IMG/VR virus record: IMGVR_UViG_3300035034_000461
Span: 1-64,000 of that record
DNA length: 64,000 nucleotides
Origin: a virus
Reading direction: 5' to 3' (one strand)
A program made the position numbers and the translations under genes. Below the pieces are notes generated by a model, which was not told where the DNA came from, did no database searches, and was given only the letters and a program-made list of their open reading frames with translations. This document shows, piece by piece, positions 10,647 to 63,216 of the stretch (position 1 is its first letter; every line of letters starts with the position of its first letter).

Positions 10647-11330
10647 ATGAATTACGAAATTTTAAAAAATAGAGAGAAGTTCCAAGAATTTCTTGAGTGG
10701 CTACCGGACTGTAAAGAGAACGAGCAATTTTATATTGCACTTTTCTCCAGAAAAAAATATTGTCCCGAAGTCCCTTGGATCAAAAGTGATAAAGCGCAGC
10801 TTAAGCGAGGAACTTCAACCAAAGAGAGATTGGAGCAAAAGATCATGCAAATGGAATGTGCTTTTGGATCTTATAAGCATGGGGAAAATCCTGTTCCCCA
10901 AGAATCCTTGGCATTATACATCTCAACCAATCCAAGGGATCTATGGAAGGCTACAATACGCTCCATAGGAGCTTTGGCTAAGGTGGTGGAGTGCTATGGT
11001 CATAATTCCAACCCTCATCAGGAAGTGATGTCTGAGATTCAAAGAACGGCTGGAACTAGAAAATACATCACATTTGATATTGATGAGAAAAATGATAAGC
11101 TTCTGGAAGAAGTGATTGGTATCGTGGATGGTAAGTGTGACGTTCTGGAAACCCGTGGAGGTTATCATGTATTTGTTCACAAGGCACTTGTAGATGATAT
11201 CACGGATAAGAAGTGGTATAAGAGGATTACTGATATGCCAGCATGTGATCAAGCGGGAGATACTATGTCCCCCATTGCGGGGTGTTTACAGGGAATGTTT
11301 GTCCCCCACTTTATATATAGAATCAAATAA
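10647..11330 (+). CDS. Conserved phage protein, primase-like core suspected, 227 aa
   Basis: It contains 'FYIALFSRKKYCPE', 'AQLKRGTSTKERL', 'YISTNPRDLWKAT' and 'TFDIDEKND', then 'LETRGGYHVFVH'. A DxD-like 'FDID' followed by 'RGGYHV' is reminiscent of archaeo-eukaryotic primase-type active sites, and this domain is widespread in phages as a protein of unknown function. The nuclease or primase reading is inference. Promoter hexamer TACAAT lies upstream; ATATG spacing links it to the next gene (2-nt gap). Confidence 0.6.
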   Translation: MNYEILKNREKFQEFLEWLPDCKENEQFYIALFSRKKYCPEVPWIKSDKAQLKRGTSTKERLEQKIMQMECAFGSYKHGENPVPQESLALYISTNPRDLWKATIRSIGALAKVVECYGHNSNPHQEVMSEIQRTAGTRKYITFDIDEKNDKLLEEVIGIVDGKCDVLETRGGYHVFVHKALVDDITDKKWYKRITDMPACDQAGDTMSPIAGCLQGMFVPHFIYRIK

Positions 11331-13774: not shown

Positions 13775-14854
13775 ATGAAATTACCAGATCCAGAACAATT
13801 TAAACTTAAAGATTGCACCATTGGCGGTGATGATTGCTGGCTTATCACGCCTAACAATATCACGGCAAAGTGGGATGAGTATAACCTATGGTTCCGATCT
13901 ATCATCATTCGTAAGAGTGATAGTTACGTGGTGAACTGTTCGTTTGGAAAATTTTTCAACTTCGCAGAGAAGCCTGATTTATCACCATTTCCACTAGATC
14001 AACCATTTGAGATTTTGGAGAAACATGACGGATCTACATTAGTTGTCGGTTCTCATAATGGAGAACTCATTCACCGGACTCGGGGTAATACTAATGCTGA
14101 ACAATTAGATAATGGGCATGAAATTGAATTCTTGAAAAATAAATATCCCAAGGTATTCAACGCCGTATATGATCATCATGATTACACATTTTTATATGAA
14201 TGGGAAACTCCCAACAATGTGATAGTCATAAGGCGGGTATCTGAACCCACTCTTACATTAATTGGGTGCGTCGATAATCGAAACCTTAGATATATAAGTC
14301 AGGAGGACTTGGACGCAATGGGTGAGATACTTGGCGTTGATCGACCTAAGAGATTTGAATTTAATTCTATATCATCTTGTATTGAGGAGGTTGGAGAGTG
14401 GAAGGATAGCGAGGGCATCGTCATCTATTCAAAGGATGGACAATCACTTCGTAAGATTAAAGCTTCCCTATATCTAAAATTACATTCTCTCCTATCAGGA
14501 CTTAAAAATGTCAATAACGTATTGGATGTGTTTATGGAATCTCCGAAGTTCACCACATCAGAGGATTTTTACGACTATTTGAACATCACCATGGATTTTG
14601 AAATTGCGGAAAGATGTAAAGATTTCATCGAAGAAATTATTCCAGCGTATAATGAAGCTCTGATTAAAATTGGAAGAGTTGAGGATTTTTTGAAGACCAT
14701 CAAAACAGGATTCTCTCGTAAGGAACAAGCTATTGAAATTCAGAAACATTGGAGCGATTGGCGCGTATCCTTCAGTTTCCAAATTCTTGACAATAAGGAA
14801 CTGGACGATAAGATCTTGCGTAGGGCAATTGAAGCAGAACTTATTAAAAAGTAG
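13775..14854 (+). CDS. RNA ligase, T4 Rnl1 family
   Basis: 359 residues, similar to T4 Rnl1 (374). The nucleotidyl-lysine motif I is 'EKHDGS', with Lys83 as the expected nucleophile. It is preceded by 'FGKFFNFAE', conserved in Rnl1. 'YEWETPNN' (motif III-like), 'SEGIVIYS' (motif IV) and 'KIKASLYLKLH' (motif V) follow. It seals 5'-phosphate to 3'-hydroxyl RNA ends, classically tRNAs cut by host anticodon nucleases. Confidence 0.88.
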   Translation: MKLPDPEQFKLKDCTIGGDDCWLITPNNITAKWDEYNLWFRSIIIRKSDSYVVNCSFGKFFNFAEKPDLSPFPLDQPFEILEKHDGSTLVVGSHNGELIHRTRGNTNAEQLDNGHEIEFLKNKYPKVFNAVYDHHDYTFLYEWETPNNVIVIRRVSEPTLTLIGCVDNRNLRYISQEDLDAMGEILGVDRPKRFEFNSISSCIEEVGEWKDSEGIVIYSKDGQSLRKIKASLYLKLHSLLSGLKNVNNVLDVFMESPKFTTSEDFYDYLNITMDFEIAERCKDFIEEIIPAYNEALIKIGRVEDFLKTIKTGFSRKEQAIEIQKHWSDWRVSFSFQILDNKELDDKILRRAIEAELIKK

Positions 14855-36045: not shown

Positions 36046-36426
36046 ATGAAAACAATCGCCCAACAACTAAACGTTAAGGATTTTCCATTTATCATCAAAG
36101 ATAAGAACGGTAAACGAACTTACTCTGAAGATTCGACGGGGTATTGGAGCAAACGAGAATATGATAAAAACGGTAAACAAACTTACTACGAAGATTCCAA
36201 CAGATATTGGTGCAAACGAGAATTCGATAAGATCGGGAATCAAACTTACTTCGAAGATTAGACGTATTGGAGCAAACGAGAATCTGATTCTAACGGCTGC
36301 GAAATTTACTTAGAAGATTCGACATCTGGCGTTATCACCGATGACAGACCGAAGGTAACTTTCACTATCAAAGAGATCGCCGAAAAGCTCGGTATCGATG
36401 TAAAAACCCTTCAAATTAAAAAATAA
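36046..36426 (+). pseudogene. YD-like repeat family gene with in-frame TAG
   Basis: The first 71 codons are normal. At 36259-36261 the usual GATTCGACG reads GATTAGACG, a TCG-to-TAG change, with one codon also lost. The rest ('YWSKRESDSNGCEIYLED' to the tail 'KTLQIKK') stays in frame to TAA 36424. An inactive copy by a single base change. Confidence 0.85.
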
Positions 36427-36452: not shown

Positions 36453-36529
36453 TCTCCTATAGCTCAATCGGTTAGAGCGTCATTTTCATAAAGTGGGGGT
36501 TCTTGGTTCAAGTCCAAGTGGGAGAACCA
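36453..36529 (+). tRNA. tRNA with CAU anticodon (Met or Ile2)
   Basis: Cloverleaf drawn by hand: acceptor TCTCCTA/TGGGAGA, D stem GCTC/GAGC, anticodon stem TCATT/AGTGG with loop TTCATAA (CAT at 36487-36489), T stem CTTGG/CCAAG with TTCAAGT, and encoded CCA at 36527-36529. It lacks initiator-tRNA features. Because the gene 21 nt downstream encodes TilS, an Ile2 identity (lysidine-34, reading AUA) is attractive, but elongator Met is equally allowed by the loop. Confidence 0.93.
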
Positions 36530-36549
36530 ATTTTAATATATATATAAAC

Positions 36550-37164
36550 ATGATCAAAGTATTTCCAGACATCCCCAAAAAGTTTACCTTACTGGTATCT
36601 GGTGGCGTTGATAGTGTGGTGGCCTGCGTGTGGCTCAAAAAAGTATATAGAAAAGAATTTGAAGTTCTCCACTTCAATCATAATATACAAGAGTCAAATC
36701 GGTTCATGGAAAGTTCAGTATTGAGCCTATGTAAAGATTTGAATATCAACATTTCGGTGATATTCAAGCCAAAGGGGGGGGATGTATCGGAAAATAGTCT
36801 GAGAGCTTGGAGACTTTCAAATTTAAAATCCATCGGTGGAAACTTCATAACGGCTCATCACATGGGAGATGTAAAGGAAAACTATCTTTCGAATTGTATT
36901 AAGGGTCATGGTGGTCACGTTCCCATCGCAAAGCATACTGACCTCAATTCATACACAAAAGTATATCATCCATTTCTACTGACAAATAAAGACGACTTCG
37001 TTGAATACGCTAAAAATGAAAAATTGCGACGATACATTGTAGAAGATCCCACAAACACTTCCATGTGTCACACGAGAAACTGGATCAGAAAAATGATTGG
37101 AGAGATGGAAGATCGTGGACTTGGCATGGAGAAAATGATCAGGAGAAACTTTTATAAAAACTAG
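36550..37164 (+). CDS. tilS: tRNA(Ile)-lysidine synthase, minimal form
   Basis: 204 residues. PP-loop 'LLVSGGVDS' at residues 14-22, 'LHFNHNIQ', 'ITAHHMGDVKENYL' and 'VEDPTNTSMCHTRNWIRKMI' are the successive TilS motifs (SGGxDS, aHh.dD..E, eDp.N....y.RN.iR). Bacterial TilS is usually 300-450 residues; here only the catalytic N-terminal domain is kept. It converts C34 of tRNA-Ile2(CAU) to lysidine so it reads AUA. ATG 36550 is chosen over 36493, which lies in the tRNA. Confidence 0.88.
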   Translation: MIKVFPDIPKKFTLLVSGGVDSVVACVWLKKVYRKEFEVLHFNHNIQESNRFMESSVLSLCKDLNINISVIFKPKGGDVSENSLRAWRLSNLKSIGGNFITAHHMGDVKENYLSNCIKGHGGHVPIAKHTDLNSYTKVYHPFLLTNKDDFVEYAKNEKLRRYIVEDPTNTSMCHTRNWIRKMIGEMEDRGLGMEKMIRRNFYKN

Positions 37165-37181
37165 GATACACTAACGACACA

Positions 37182-37463
37182 ATGAACTACGACGAAATGA
37201 CATCAGATGAATTGTTTGAACTTGCGGAAAATAAAAAGCTGGAAGAATCAAATATCAAAACGGGGGAATTACAACTTTATGTGTGGGAGGAGTTTGAGCC
37301 TGATTACACAAGTGGACTAGCGTTTACTTTGGCTAGAAGCTTGAAAGATGCCAAGAGGCAAGTAATGGAAGAGCGAAACAGCTGTGATGTTTATGGTTGG
37401 GGGACTTTAACCGTTCATGGTCTAACCGATCCTATTACCTATCGGGTATCTGGGGGAGGCTAA
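37182..37463 (+). CDS. Hypothetical protein, 93 aa
   Basis: Acidic start, then 'LYVWEEFEPDYTSGLAFTLA' and 'SLKDAKRQVMEE', a pattern seen in small phage proteins of unknown role. Promoter TACACT. Confidence 0.7.
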   Translation: MNYDEMTSDELFELAENKKLEESNIKTGELQLYVWEEFEPDYTSGLAFTLARSLKDAKRQVMEERNSCDVYGWGTLTVHGLTDPITYRVSGGG

Positions 37464-50452: not shown

Positions 50453-50527
50453 GCGCTTGTAGCTCAAGGGTAGAGCAAACGACTCATAATCGTTAGGTTA
50501 CTGGTTCGAATCCAGTCGGGCGCACCA
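50453..50527 (+). tRNA. tRNA with CAU anticodon (Ile2 candidate)
   Basis: Acceptor GCGCTTG/CGGGCGC (two G-T pairs), D stem GCTC/GAGC, anticodon stem AACGA/TCGTT with loop CTCATAA (CAT at 50485-50487), T stem ACTGG/CCAGT with TTCGAAT, discriminator A and encoded CCA. The core CGACTCATAATCG equals that of E. coli tRNA-Ile2 as I recall it. Together with the phage TilS this suggests AUA decoding; Met cannot be excluded. Confidence 0.93.
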
Positions 50528-57678: not shown

Positions 57679-57716
57679 AAGTTGACTTTACCACGACAAT
57701 ATGATAAAGTCAACTT
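57679..57716. promoter_or_regulatory. Palindromic divergent promoter or operator
   Basis: AAGTTGACTTTA (57679-57690) and TAAAGTCAACTT (57705-57716) are perfect inverted repeats. On both strands this gives TTGACT, a 17-nt spacer and TAAAGT, i.e. a symmetric sigma-70-type promoter pair for the genes at 57678 (minus) and 57727 (plus). The same symmetry would suit a dimeric repressor. Confidence 0.65.
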
Positions 57717-57726
57717 AAATAAGAAA

Positions 57727-59238
57727 ATGCAGCACTTCAAGATGTTTTATGAAAATATGGAAGATAACTTTTCCGGTAAGTGGGAGGATGCTTTGCGCTC
57801 TTCTGAGGAGCTTTCCGTAGCAGTTGATCTCATGGGTAATATGAAGTCCAAGATCTCGGGAGAGATTTATATAGTGGGGGGAGTTCCCCGCGATCTTTTG
57901 ATGGGAGGAGAGATTGATGATGTGGATCTGGCAACCAACATGCCCTTTGAAGAGATTGCCAAACATTTCAAAATTGCCAATATATCTAAGAACGATTCCC
58001 AACCTGTGTATGCAATCAAGTGGAAAGATTACACTTACGATCTTGCCAAGTTCCGTGAGGATTCCGGTGATCTAGGAAGGCAGAATAATGTTTCAAAAGA
58101 AACGGACTCCTTTGAATCGGATACATCCAGAAGAGACATATCGATCAATGCTTTTGGTATGGATGAAAATGGAACTCTTGTGGATTACCAAGGAGGTATT
58201 CAGGATTTGGAAAATAAGATCATCCGTGCTGTGGGAGATGCTAAACAGAGATTCAAGGAAGATGCCACTCGTATTCTTCGGGTGTTTCGGTTTGCTGCTA
58301 AGATGGACTTTGATATTGAGGAAAAAACCAAAGCTGCTGCCATCGAACTTAAAGATCTTCTCAGCGACCCCTCTGCGATCTCCATGGAATCCATATCCAA
58401 AGAGTTTTATAAATCAGCTAAGTCTGGAAGAACTCTTTCTAACTTTTTAAAGAAGCTTCAAGACACGGGAATCCTACATGACATTCTACCCGAGTTCACA
58501 AGCATGGAAGGATTTGACCACAATCCCGAACACCACCCCGAGGGGGATTCTCAAGTTCTGGGACATATATATGAATGTCTCAATGTATCTCCCTACAATG
58601 ATCCTGTGATAAATCTGGCAGTCCTTTTCCACGATTTCGGAAAGGCTACTACCCGTGGAACAAGCGATTCAGGACATTCCAATTATCATGGACATGAAGG
58701 GGCAGGGGTTCCTATTGTTGAAGATATTTTCAACCGTCTTCGATTCGCTGAATTATCGGCAAATGATAAGAAAAATATATTATTCGCGGTGGATCGTCAT
58801 ATGCTTATTCATAAGTTGGATGATCTTACCATGAAGACCCTAGTCAAGCTTATCCAAAATCCGGCGTGGGAAGTTGTCAAGGCTGTGGGGTATTGTGATG
58901 AAGCTTCGCGTGGATCGGGACATTTTGACGCAAAAGCATTTGAAGAGAAGATTCAAAGAGCGGAAGAGCGGGTTGCTAAAGTTGGGGGAAATGATCCCAA
59001 TGCTGGTAGAGAAGTTATCAAAAAATACGTGGATGGTAACAAACTCATGCAGTGGTTCCCCGCCCTTAAAACCGATAAGAGTAAGTTCAAGGATATTATG
59101 TCTGGAATGCAGGAGTATATTATGAACTCTCTGGAACAAGGAACGGAACCCAACGAAGAAGAGCTTAAAAATATCGGCAATGGGATTTTATCAGAATCGC
59201 GGTTTGATATTTTATATAGACGAATCCTTTCTAAATAA
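57727..59238 (+). CDS. cca: CCA-adding tRNA nucleotidyltransferase with HD domain
   Basis: 503 residues. 'IYIVGGVPRDLLMGGEIDDV' followed by D gives the GG..RD...G...DxD active site (Asp65, Asp67). 'YQGGIQDLENKIIRAVGDAK' and 'EDATRILRVFRFAAKM' are the class II CCA/poly(A) polymerase blocks. The C-terminal part has an HD motif ('LAVLFHDFGKA'). It repairs or adds 3'-CCA on tRNAs. ATG 57727 is taken because the TTG at 57682 lies in the promoter. Confidence 0.93.
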   Translation: MQHFKMFYENMEDNFSGKWEDALRSSEELSVAVDLMGNMKSKISGEIYIVGGVPRDLLMGGEIDDVDLATNMPFEEIAKHFKIANISKNDSQPVYAIKWKDYTYDLAKFREDSGDLGRQNNVSKETDSFESDTSRRDISINAFGMDENGTLVDYQGGIQDLENKIIRAVGDAKQRFKEDATRILRVFRFAAKMDFDIEEKTKAAAIELKDLLSDPSAISMESISKEFYKSAKSGRTLSNFLKKLQDTGILHDILPEFTSMEGFDHNPEHHPEGDSQVLGHIYECLNVSPYNDPVINLAVLFHDFGKATTRGTSDSGHSNYHGHEGAGVPIVEDIFNRLRFAELSANDKKNILFAVDRHMLIHKLDDLTMKTLVKLIQNPAWEVVKAVGYCDEASRGSGHFDAKAFEEKIQRAEERVAKVGGNDPNAGREVIKKYVDGNKLMQWFPALKTDKSKFKDIMSGMQEYIMNSLEQGTEPNEEELKNIGNGILSESRFDILYRRILSK

Positions 59239-62282: not shown

Positions 62283-62681
62283 TTAAACGAGTCTATTGGA
62301 AATCATAATGGTTCCGTCAGATTTTTCTGCCATTTTCTTTATATGTCTAGCTTCTTTTAAAGAATCTGCGTATTTAAACCCCCAATCGTTTATATAATCA
62401 CGATACATCCAAATTGAATGTGACCTATTGAAGGTATGTGGATATTCCCCATTATTCAAATAGTCCCAAATAGAGTCATCTGACATTTTTTTAAACCTTT
62501 TTGGGATACACCACAACCACTTTTCTTCTTTCGCAGCAGCGATCAGAATAGCCTTACATTCTTCCGCCCTTTTTTTATAATCCTTCCTCGATACTTTGAC
62601 CTCTTCTTCATATTTTTCCACGGCTTGGATTACATCTCCACAATCCACCCACATCATTGCACCAATCATATTATCATTCAT
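62283..62681 (-). CDS. Hypothetical protein, 132 aa
   Basis: 'DVIQAVEKYEEEVKVSRKDY' helix, then 'WCIPKRFKKMSDDSIWDYLN'. Not recognised. Overlaps the 2H gene by 8 nt. Confidence 0.65.
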   Translation of the reverse strand: MNDNMIGAMMWVDCGDVIQAVEKYEEEVKVSRKDYKKRAEECKAILIAAAKEEKWLWCIPKRFKKMSDDSIWDYLNNGEYPHTFNRSHSIWMYRDYINDWGFKYADSLKEARHIKKMAEKSDGTIMISNRLV

Positions 62682-63216
62682 CGTTTAATTGTAGTCTAGT
62701 TTTTATCTCGTCGGGAGATGAATAGACAATCTCATTTGGAATCACTTCATACTCCAAACCTTTCATCTTCTCCACGTATTTTTTACCCATCCCTTTAACC
62801 AAATATCCAATCGTAACATGGGGGTGGTAATCTGGATAATCACTCTCGTATGGGAAATTATCCATGAGGCGTTCATTCATATCCTGAATGGTTTTTGAGT
62901 CATCCTTCACATCAAATTTGAGAACATCATACTTTTCATTTTCAAATAGAGAGGCATTCGCAAGTATGAGAGGTGGAACTTTGAAATCTTCCAATTCCCC
63001 CAAAACATCATACCCCTTAACATCAGGATCGAATCCATAGAGCAACGTGCAATGTGTTTCATCCTCCAATCCATAGTCATCATCCTCTATGTAAATATCT
63101 TCATCATCAATCATATCATGAATCTCCTGCATTTGAGGAAGATTGAAATACAACATTGCACATCCTTTAGATACGTTTGATCTTTCTAGGAAGAACTTTA
63201 AGAATTTTTTCATCAC
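62674..63216 (-). CDS. 2H phosphoesterase (LigT-like)
   Basis: 180 residues. Two HxT motifs, 'DETHCTLLYGF' and 'DYHPHVTIGYLV', about 80 residues apart, as in LigT/2H enzymes that act on 2',3'-cyclic phosphates or 2'-5' links. It would fit RNA-end processing with the kinase and ligase at 12-15 kb. Unlike the 25138 protein it shows no Acb1-type start. Confidence 0.85.
   Translation of the reverse strand: MMKKFLKFFLERSNVSKGCAMLYFNLPQMQEIHDMIDDEDIYIEDDDYGLEDETHCTLLYGFDPDVKGYDVLGELEDFKVPPLILANASLFENEKYDVLKFDVKDDSKTIQDMNERLMDNFPYESDYPDYHPHVTIGYLVKGMGKKYVEKMKGLEYEVIPNEIVYSSPDEIKTRLQLNDE

Follow-up and report, generated by a model that had tools for sequence, protein, structure and literature searches.

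A CTD-less TilS-like gene beside a CAU tRNA in a phage genome: a likely AUA-decoding cassette

Nearly all bacteria depend on lysidine synthesis, which sets the meaning of a CAU tRNA, methionine or isoleucine, and is for that reason essential. TilS, which nearly all bacteria possess, adenylates C34 and attaches lysine to it, so that a tRNA for Met and AUG becomes one for Ile and AUA. Type I enzymes carry two C-terminal domains, CTD1 and CTD2, and type II enzymes carry CTD1 alone. In the TilS enzymes that have been studied, the C-terminal domains make contacts with the stems of the tRNA and serve to distinguish tRNA-Ile2 from tRNA-Met; type I enzymes require them for activity (PMC12514573). A phage TilS was published in 2019 for MIJ3 and stated there to be unreported in phages before; a term search of that paper found no discussion of tRNA pairing or of missing C-terminal domains (PMC6892783). 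A lysidine-type tRNA-Ile (CAU) was published for T4-like phages in 2006 (PMC1524935). We found no description in the open-access literature of a tilS–tRNA-Ile2 pairing in phages or of the loss of the C-terminal domains, and we treat novelty as provisional.

The locus described here lies in a 64,000-nt stretch (the window) of a 72,745-bp virus record. Set beside bacterial TilS of types I and II (E. coli MesJ, 1ni5; Aquifex, 1wy5/2e21/2e89; Geobacillus, 3a2k), its protein is similar in PP-loop domain, catalytic residues, and predicted fold, and its presumed substrate is likewise a CAU tRNA-Ile2 with C4-G69. Unlike the bacterial enzymes, it has only 204 residues, lacks CTD1 and CTD2, belongs to a separate phage clade, and scores 10 bits under the cut-off of the TIGR02432 model. 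The TilS proteins of the Pseudomonas jumbo phages MIJ3 and PA5oct are about 203 aa long, fall in the same clade, and are 34% identical to the window protein, and a genome of this type also carries CAU tRNAs, one of which scores as Ile2 (+14.3). In contrast to the window, the 10.5-kb stretches around tilS in MIJ3 and PA5oct contain no tRNA, the CAU tRNAs lying about 7–10 kb off. The CAU tRNA of T4-like phages, annotated as tRNA-Ile, resembles the one beside tilS in the window in having both C4-G69 and C5-G68, but it has no tilS neighbor in the T4 stretch examined and is presumed to rely on host TilS. What appears to be new is the recurrence of the cassette, together with the question of how a TilS without C-terminal domains tells tRNA-Ile2 from tRNA-Met.

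Ancestry and domain content of the TilS-like protein

The tilS-like gene runs from an ATG at 36550 to a stop at 37164 (36550..37164, + strand) and begins 20 nt 3′ of a tRNA(CAU) at 36453..36529 (+), on which ARAGORN and Rfam agree (60.9 bits); both members of the pair proposed in the first-pass annotation are thus present. The 204-aa product matches PF01171 at 79.9 bits (cut-off 27), and its best NCBIfam model is TIGR02432, lysidine_TilS_N, at 83.8 bits. Because the latter falls below the curated cut-off of 93.6 bits, we label the protein a CTD-less TilS-like form and not a standard TilS. No TtcA model was among its profile matches, and Aquifex TilS was the best match in a PDB sequence search. 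In a tree of 17 bacterial TilS, 7 TtcA, and 19 sampled phage proteins, the branch dividing TilS and the phage proteins from TtcA received support of 100/100, and a single clade united all 19 phage proteins (99/99). The window protein has the SGGxDS motif and residues H44, E110, D166, N169, R176, N177, and R180, as well as R88 and D107, none of which varies within the phage set. TilS conserves the motif and the first seven of these residues, which TtcA either lacks or does not conserve, and the window protein is without the cysteines that TtcA sequences share in their alignment. An AlphaFold2 model (pLDDT 89.4, pTM 0.87) had as its top PDB matches Aquifex TilS bound to AMPPNP (2e21) or to ATP and lysine (2e89) and E. 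coli TilS (1ni5), with TtuA close behind. By sequence, the window protein is of TilS ancestry. We rejected TtcA or another PP-loop identity on the basis of tree placement and residues, and the earlier assignment to TilS, which would have given way had the protein grouped with TtcA, holds.

The protein stops directly after the catalytic domain, and the length of its open reading frame bears out the earlier description of a minimal, 204-aa TilS. This small size is not an accident of the window contig, because 193 of the 195 complete phage tilS frames, from 196 loci, encode 190–229 aa; the open frames of 17 intact bacterial TilS matches span 326–672 aa. A C-terminal domain encoded separately just 3′ of the gene was also considered and rejected, the next frame (37182-37463) having no Pfam match. 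Within the phage clade, either the catalytic domain alone selects tRNA-Ile2 or selectivity is relaxed. The latter is worth considering because CAU tRNAs whose variable arm is long, and which are thus of class II shape, occur near tilS in several phages: 36 nt 3′ of the gene in L308, in L057/L265 (426 nt 3′ of the gene in L057, at 11060-11152), 823 nt 5′ in L260, and at 15334-15425 in L065. It is conceivable, although we think it improbable, that the phage proteins constitute a class of their own, able to select tRNA with no C-terminal domain at all, and that, beside a long-variable-arm CAU tRNA, lysidine may be placed on a non-isoleucine type of tRNA, so that AUA or AUG would be read outside the normal Ile/Met partition.

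Identity of the two CAU tRNAs

The second tRNA(CAU) reported in the first pass, at 50453..50527 (+), was likewise found by both ARAGORN and Rfam (71.1 bits). For classification of the two, a generic CAU pattern was applied to 116 bacterial stretches and yielded 128 CAU tRNAs, 119 of them parsable non-initiators; a seeded mixture model that treats positions as independent split these references, themselves picked by sequence pattern, into 65 Ile2 and 54 elongator Met. Loci holding both kinds of tRNA split as expected, and leave-one-out misplaced 1 of the 119 references, with scores ranging from 6.5 to 42.8 bits for Ile2 and from −54.6 to 0.5 bits for Met. The C4-G69 pair is present in 57 of the 65 Ile2-class references and in none of the 54 Met-class references.

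On this scale, the tRNA at 50453 scores +22.2 bits in favor of Ile2 and retains +13.0 bits without pairs 4-69 and 5-68, and the tRNA at 36453 scores +9.5 bits (bootstrap 5–95%, 5.6–15.9) and drops to −1.4 bits without them. Neither value is low for a phage tRNA, since T4 tRNA-Ile, run as a control, scores +1.5 bits in the same classifier. Both tRNAs have the CAU anticodon, A37, A38, and A73. The tRNA at 50453 adds C4-G69, a U5-G68 wobble, C29-G41, and the loop CUCAUAA, and its sequence makes it a clear Ile2. The acceptor stem of the tRNA at 36453 reads U1-A72, C2-G71, U3-A70, C4-G69, and C5-G68, with the loop UUCAUAA and an encoded CCA; its U32 and G26 point towards Met, and A29-U41 takes the place of C29-G41. 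C4-G69 and C5-G68 are the dominant determinants for E. coli TilS (PMC12514573), and C4-G69, A73, U12-A23, and C29-G41 are bacterial isoleucine identity elements (PMC9976931). The tRNA beside tilS is probably Ile2 as well, a weaker call because the score depends on C4-G69 and C5-G68, the remainder of the molecule being neutral or slightly Met-like. It is 84% identical to the tilS-adjacent CAU tRNA of phage contig L052 and 72% identical to its best bacterial reference. Elongator Met, the alternative that the first-pass annotation had left to an identity-aware comparison, is supported for neither tRNA. Elsewhere among tilS phages, L059–L064 carry initiator-like CAU tRNAs with a C1xA72 mismatch.

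Linkage of tilS and tRNA across phages

A wide scan of viral contigs with an alignment of phage TilS returned at least 570 relatives, and neighborhoods were surveyed at 196 tilS loci, which form 48 clusters at 70% identity and come in many cases from fragmentary records. In the stretches examined, a tRNA of any kind lies within 60 nt of tilS in 11 of the 48 clusters, which rejects adjacency as a universal rule. The adjacent tRNA is CAU in 10 of those 11 clusters, compared with 15 of 125 cluster-anticodon pairs further from tilS (Fisher p = 2e-5), and the adjacency is therefore more than chance. The adjacent CAU tRNAs are always on the tilS strand, 7–51 nt away, and lie 5′ of the gene in the window, L292, and L293 and 3′ of it in L288, L289, L300, L324, L362, and others; the occurrence of both gene orders suggests that the pair may have been assembled or rearranged more than once. 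Of the 10 clusters, 9 hold at least one adjacent CAU tRNA with a positive Ile2 score, at least +9.5 except in L289 (+1.4), and the adjacent CAU tRNAs of the L285 cluster score −7.0 and +9.9.

Beyond immediate adjacency, 38 of the 196 contigs have a tRNA within 300 nt of tilS, and most of the 48 clusters have none in the stretches examined. When 2.9 million viral contigs were searched with a tight pattern of the linked tRNA, four matched; each of the four carries tilS and none is tilS-free, a partly circular result in that the pattern was built on the window and two other loci and two pattern loci are among the four matches. Several tilS phages without adjacency have an Ile2-like tRNA elsewhere, and in two long contigs with related tilS genes (41–42% identity), G002 (144 kb) and G003 (81 kb) (L046 and L047), no tRNA was found. 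The earlier remark that the pairing is not known as a standard phage feature stands insofar as the open-access literature is concerned, but the pairing does recur across phages. TilS matches were also seen in Listeria and Enterococcus "phage" records, which are unannotated and often only 1.5–26 kb long, and these are possibly host DNA within the records.

The proposed cassette and its alternatives

We consider it likely that a phage TilS-like enzyme and its tRNA-Ile2 substrate make up a self-contained cassette for decoding AUA at this locus, and this core of the first-pass reading is supported by the tree and the tRNA scores. Counting against it are the sub-threshold TIGR02432 score, the missing C-terminal domains, the dependence of the 36453 call on two base pairs, the under-use of AUA, and the majority of clusters in which no tRNA lies within 300 nt of tilS in the stretches examined. 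The tRNA at 36453 and the tilS-like gene lie close together in the same orientation, which would allow a single transcript to carry both, and the two are probably co-transcribed. The enzyme would then use ATP and lysine to convert C34 of this tRNA to lysidine, and probably also that of the tRNA at 50453. Both lysidine-bearing tRNAs would be charged with isoleucine by IleRS and would read AUA and not AUG, and AUA translation in the infected cell could be kept up independently of how much TilS the host has or whether it accepts the phage tRNAs. A phage might need its own TilS where that of the host is limiting, where it rejects the phage tRNAs, or where host tRNA-Ile2 is attacked. The acceptor stems of the phage tRNAs are not typical (U1-A72 at 36453, U5-G68 at 50453), and rejection by host TilS is plausible because B. 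cenocepacia TilS rejects E. coli tRNA-Ile2, a precedent for species specificity (PMC12514573). Its recurrence in many unrelated phages means that the pair is probably their own kit for reading AUA, a sign that what phages carry may be whole decoding units, tRNA together with modifying enzyme, beyond tRNA genes alone. A large phage clade has dispensed with the C-terminal domains and is repeatedly found beside its likely substrate, a minimal enzyme–tRNA pair for asking how a lysidine synthetase recognizes tRNA.

Codon demand alone does not explain the window phage because AUA is under-used: ATA makes up 0.195 of isoleucine codons, about half of the 0.39 expected from third-position A. The first-pass statement that the genome uses ATA often is therefore right only in part; the frequency is 14.6 per 1000 codons. 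Heavy AUA use as a motive, not supported here, holds for MIJ3-like phages, the MIJ3 region examined having ATA at 0.52 of isoleucine codons and 57 per 1000 codons.

Plain codon supply being a weak motive where AUA is not over-used, the cassette might instead serve mainly to replace host tRNA-Ile2 hit by an anti-phage tRNA nuclease, in which case a cleavage-resistant phage tRNA would need its own TilS because modification by the host is slow or the tRNA has diverged. The genome encodes about a dozen tRNAs, and three of its proteins would fit tRNA repair or upkeep: a T4 Rnl1-type RNA ligase at 13775..14854 (+; phrog_562, 135 bits; PF09511, 54.6 bits, cut-off 28.3), a tRNA nucleotidyltransferase, or CCA-adding enzyme, at 57682..59238 (+; phrog_2244, 204 bits; PF01743, 89 bits), and a 2H phosphoesterase at 62674-63216 (−), which has a weak match, under the cut-off, to the anti-CBASS protein Acb1. 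However, neither the ligase nor the CCA enzyme is encoded near tilS, PADLOC gave no model that ties the neighbors specifically to defense, and the frequent AUA of MIJ3-like phages fits codon supply. Nor is a nuclease that targets tRNA-Ile2 identified for the host; when the 696-aa ORF was used in a protein search for host assignment, it gave no match. On balance this explanation seems unlikely, and the ligase and CCA enzyme lend no more than circumstantial backing to the first-pass suggestion that the phage evades host tRNA cleavage.

We also weighed whether the small TilS mainly modifies or boosts host tRNA-Ile2, the adjacent CAU tRNA being a passenger in tRNA-rich phage DNA. The majority of tilS loci with no tRNA within 300 nt in the stretches examined, and G002 and G003, in which no tRNA was found, would be expected on this account, which is nevertheless quite unlikely given that the abutting tRNA is so consistently CAU and that all four contigs with the tight tRNA pattern carry tilS; moreover, some of the phages without adjacency have their Ile2-like tRNA elsewhere, and many records are fragments. 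That the PP-loop protein is some other tRNA-modifying or nucleotide-activating ATPase (TtcA, TtuA/NcsA, or QueC-like) and no lysidine synthase is very improbable. PP-loop proteins do resemble one another in fold, the model matching TtuA and NcsA structures as well, with TM about 0.75, and the TIGR02432 score is under its cut-off, but the TtcA cysteines are missing, the TilS-type D166, N169, R176, N177, and R180 are invariant, the tree groups the protein with TilS, TilS tops both sequence and structure matches, and the gene is linked with Ile2-type CAU tRNAs.

Several further observations concern the record itself, which is possibly a fragment because it lacks end repeats. Nine additional tRNAs are predicted outside the window at record positions 70212-71123 (−), for Trp, Gln, Thr, Lys, Pro, Asn, Glu, and Gly and with an aberrant CAU; the last, at 71046-71123 (−) (L011 11046-11123), has U37 and scores 24.9 bits, under the Rfam cut-off. 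Just upstream of the linked tRNA, a repeat-containing frame at 36046-36426 has an in-frame TAG where sibling repeats read TCG, which may reflect a nonsense mutation, a pseudogene, or read-through. Across the whole record, the sequence AAAACTAGGAT has 33 exact copies on the + strand and 0 on the − strand, for example at 37157, 37470, 50395, and 50535 (+), and most copies take the form TAAAAACTAGGATANANT, followed a few nucleotides on by a start codon. Shine–Dalgarno-like sequences 5′ of starts are not enriched (5 versus 6.7 in shuffles), and the arrangement of the AAAACTAGGAT copies suggests −10-type promoters that would give rise to leaderless mRNAs.
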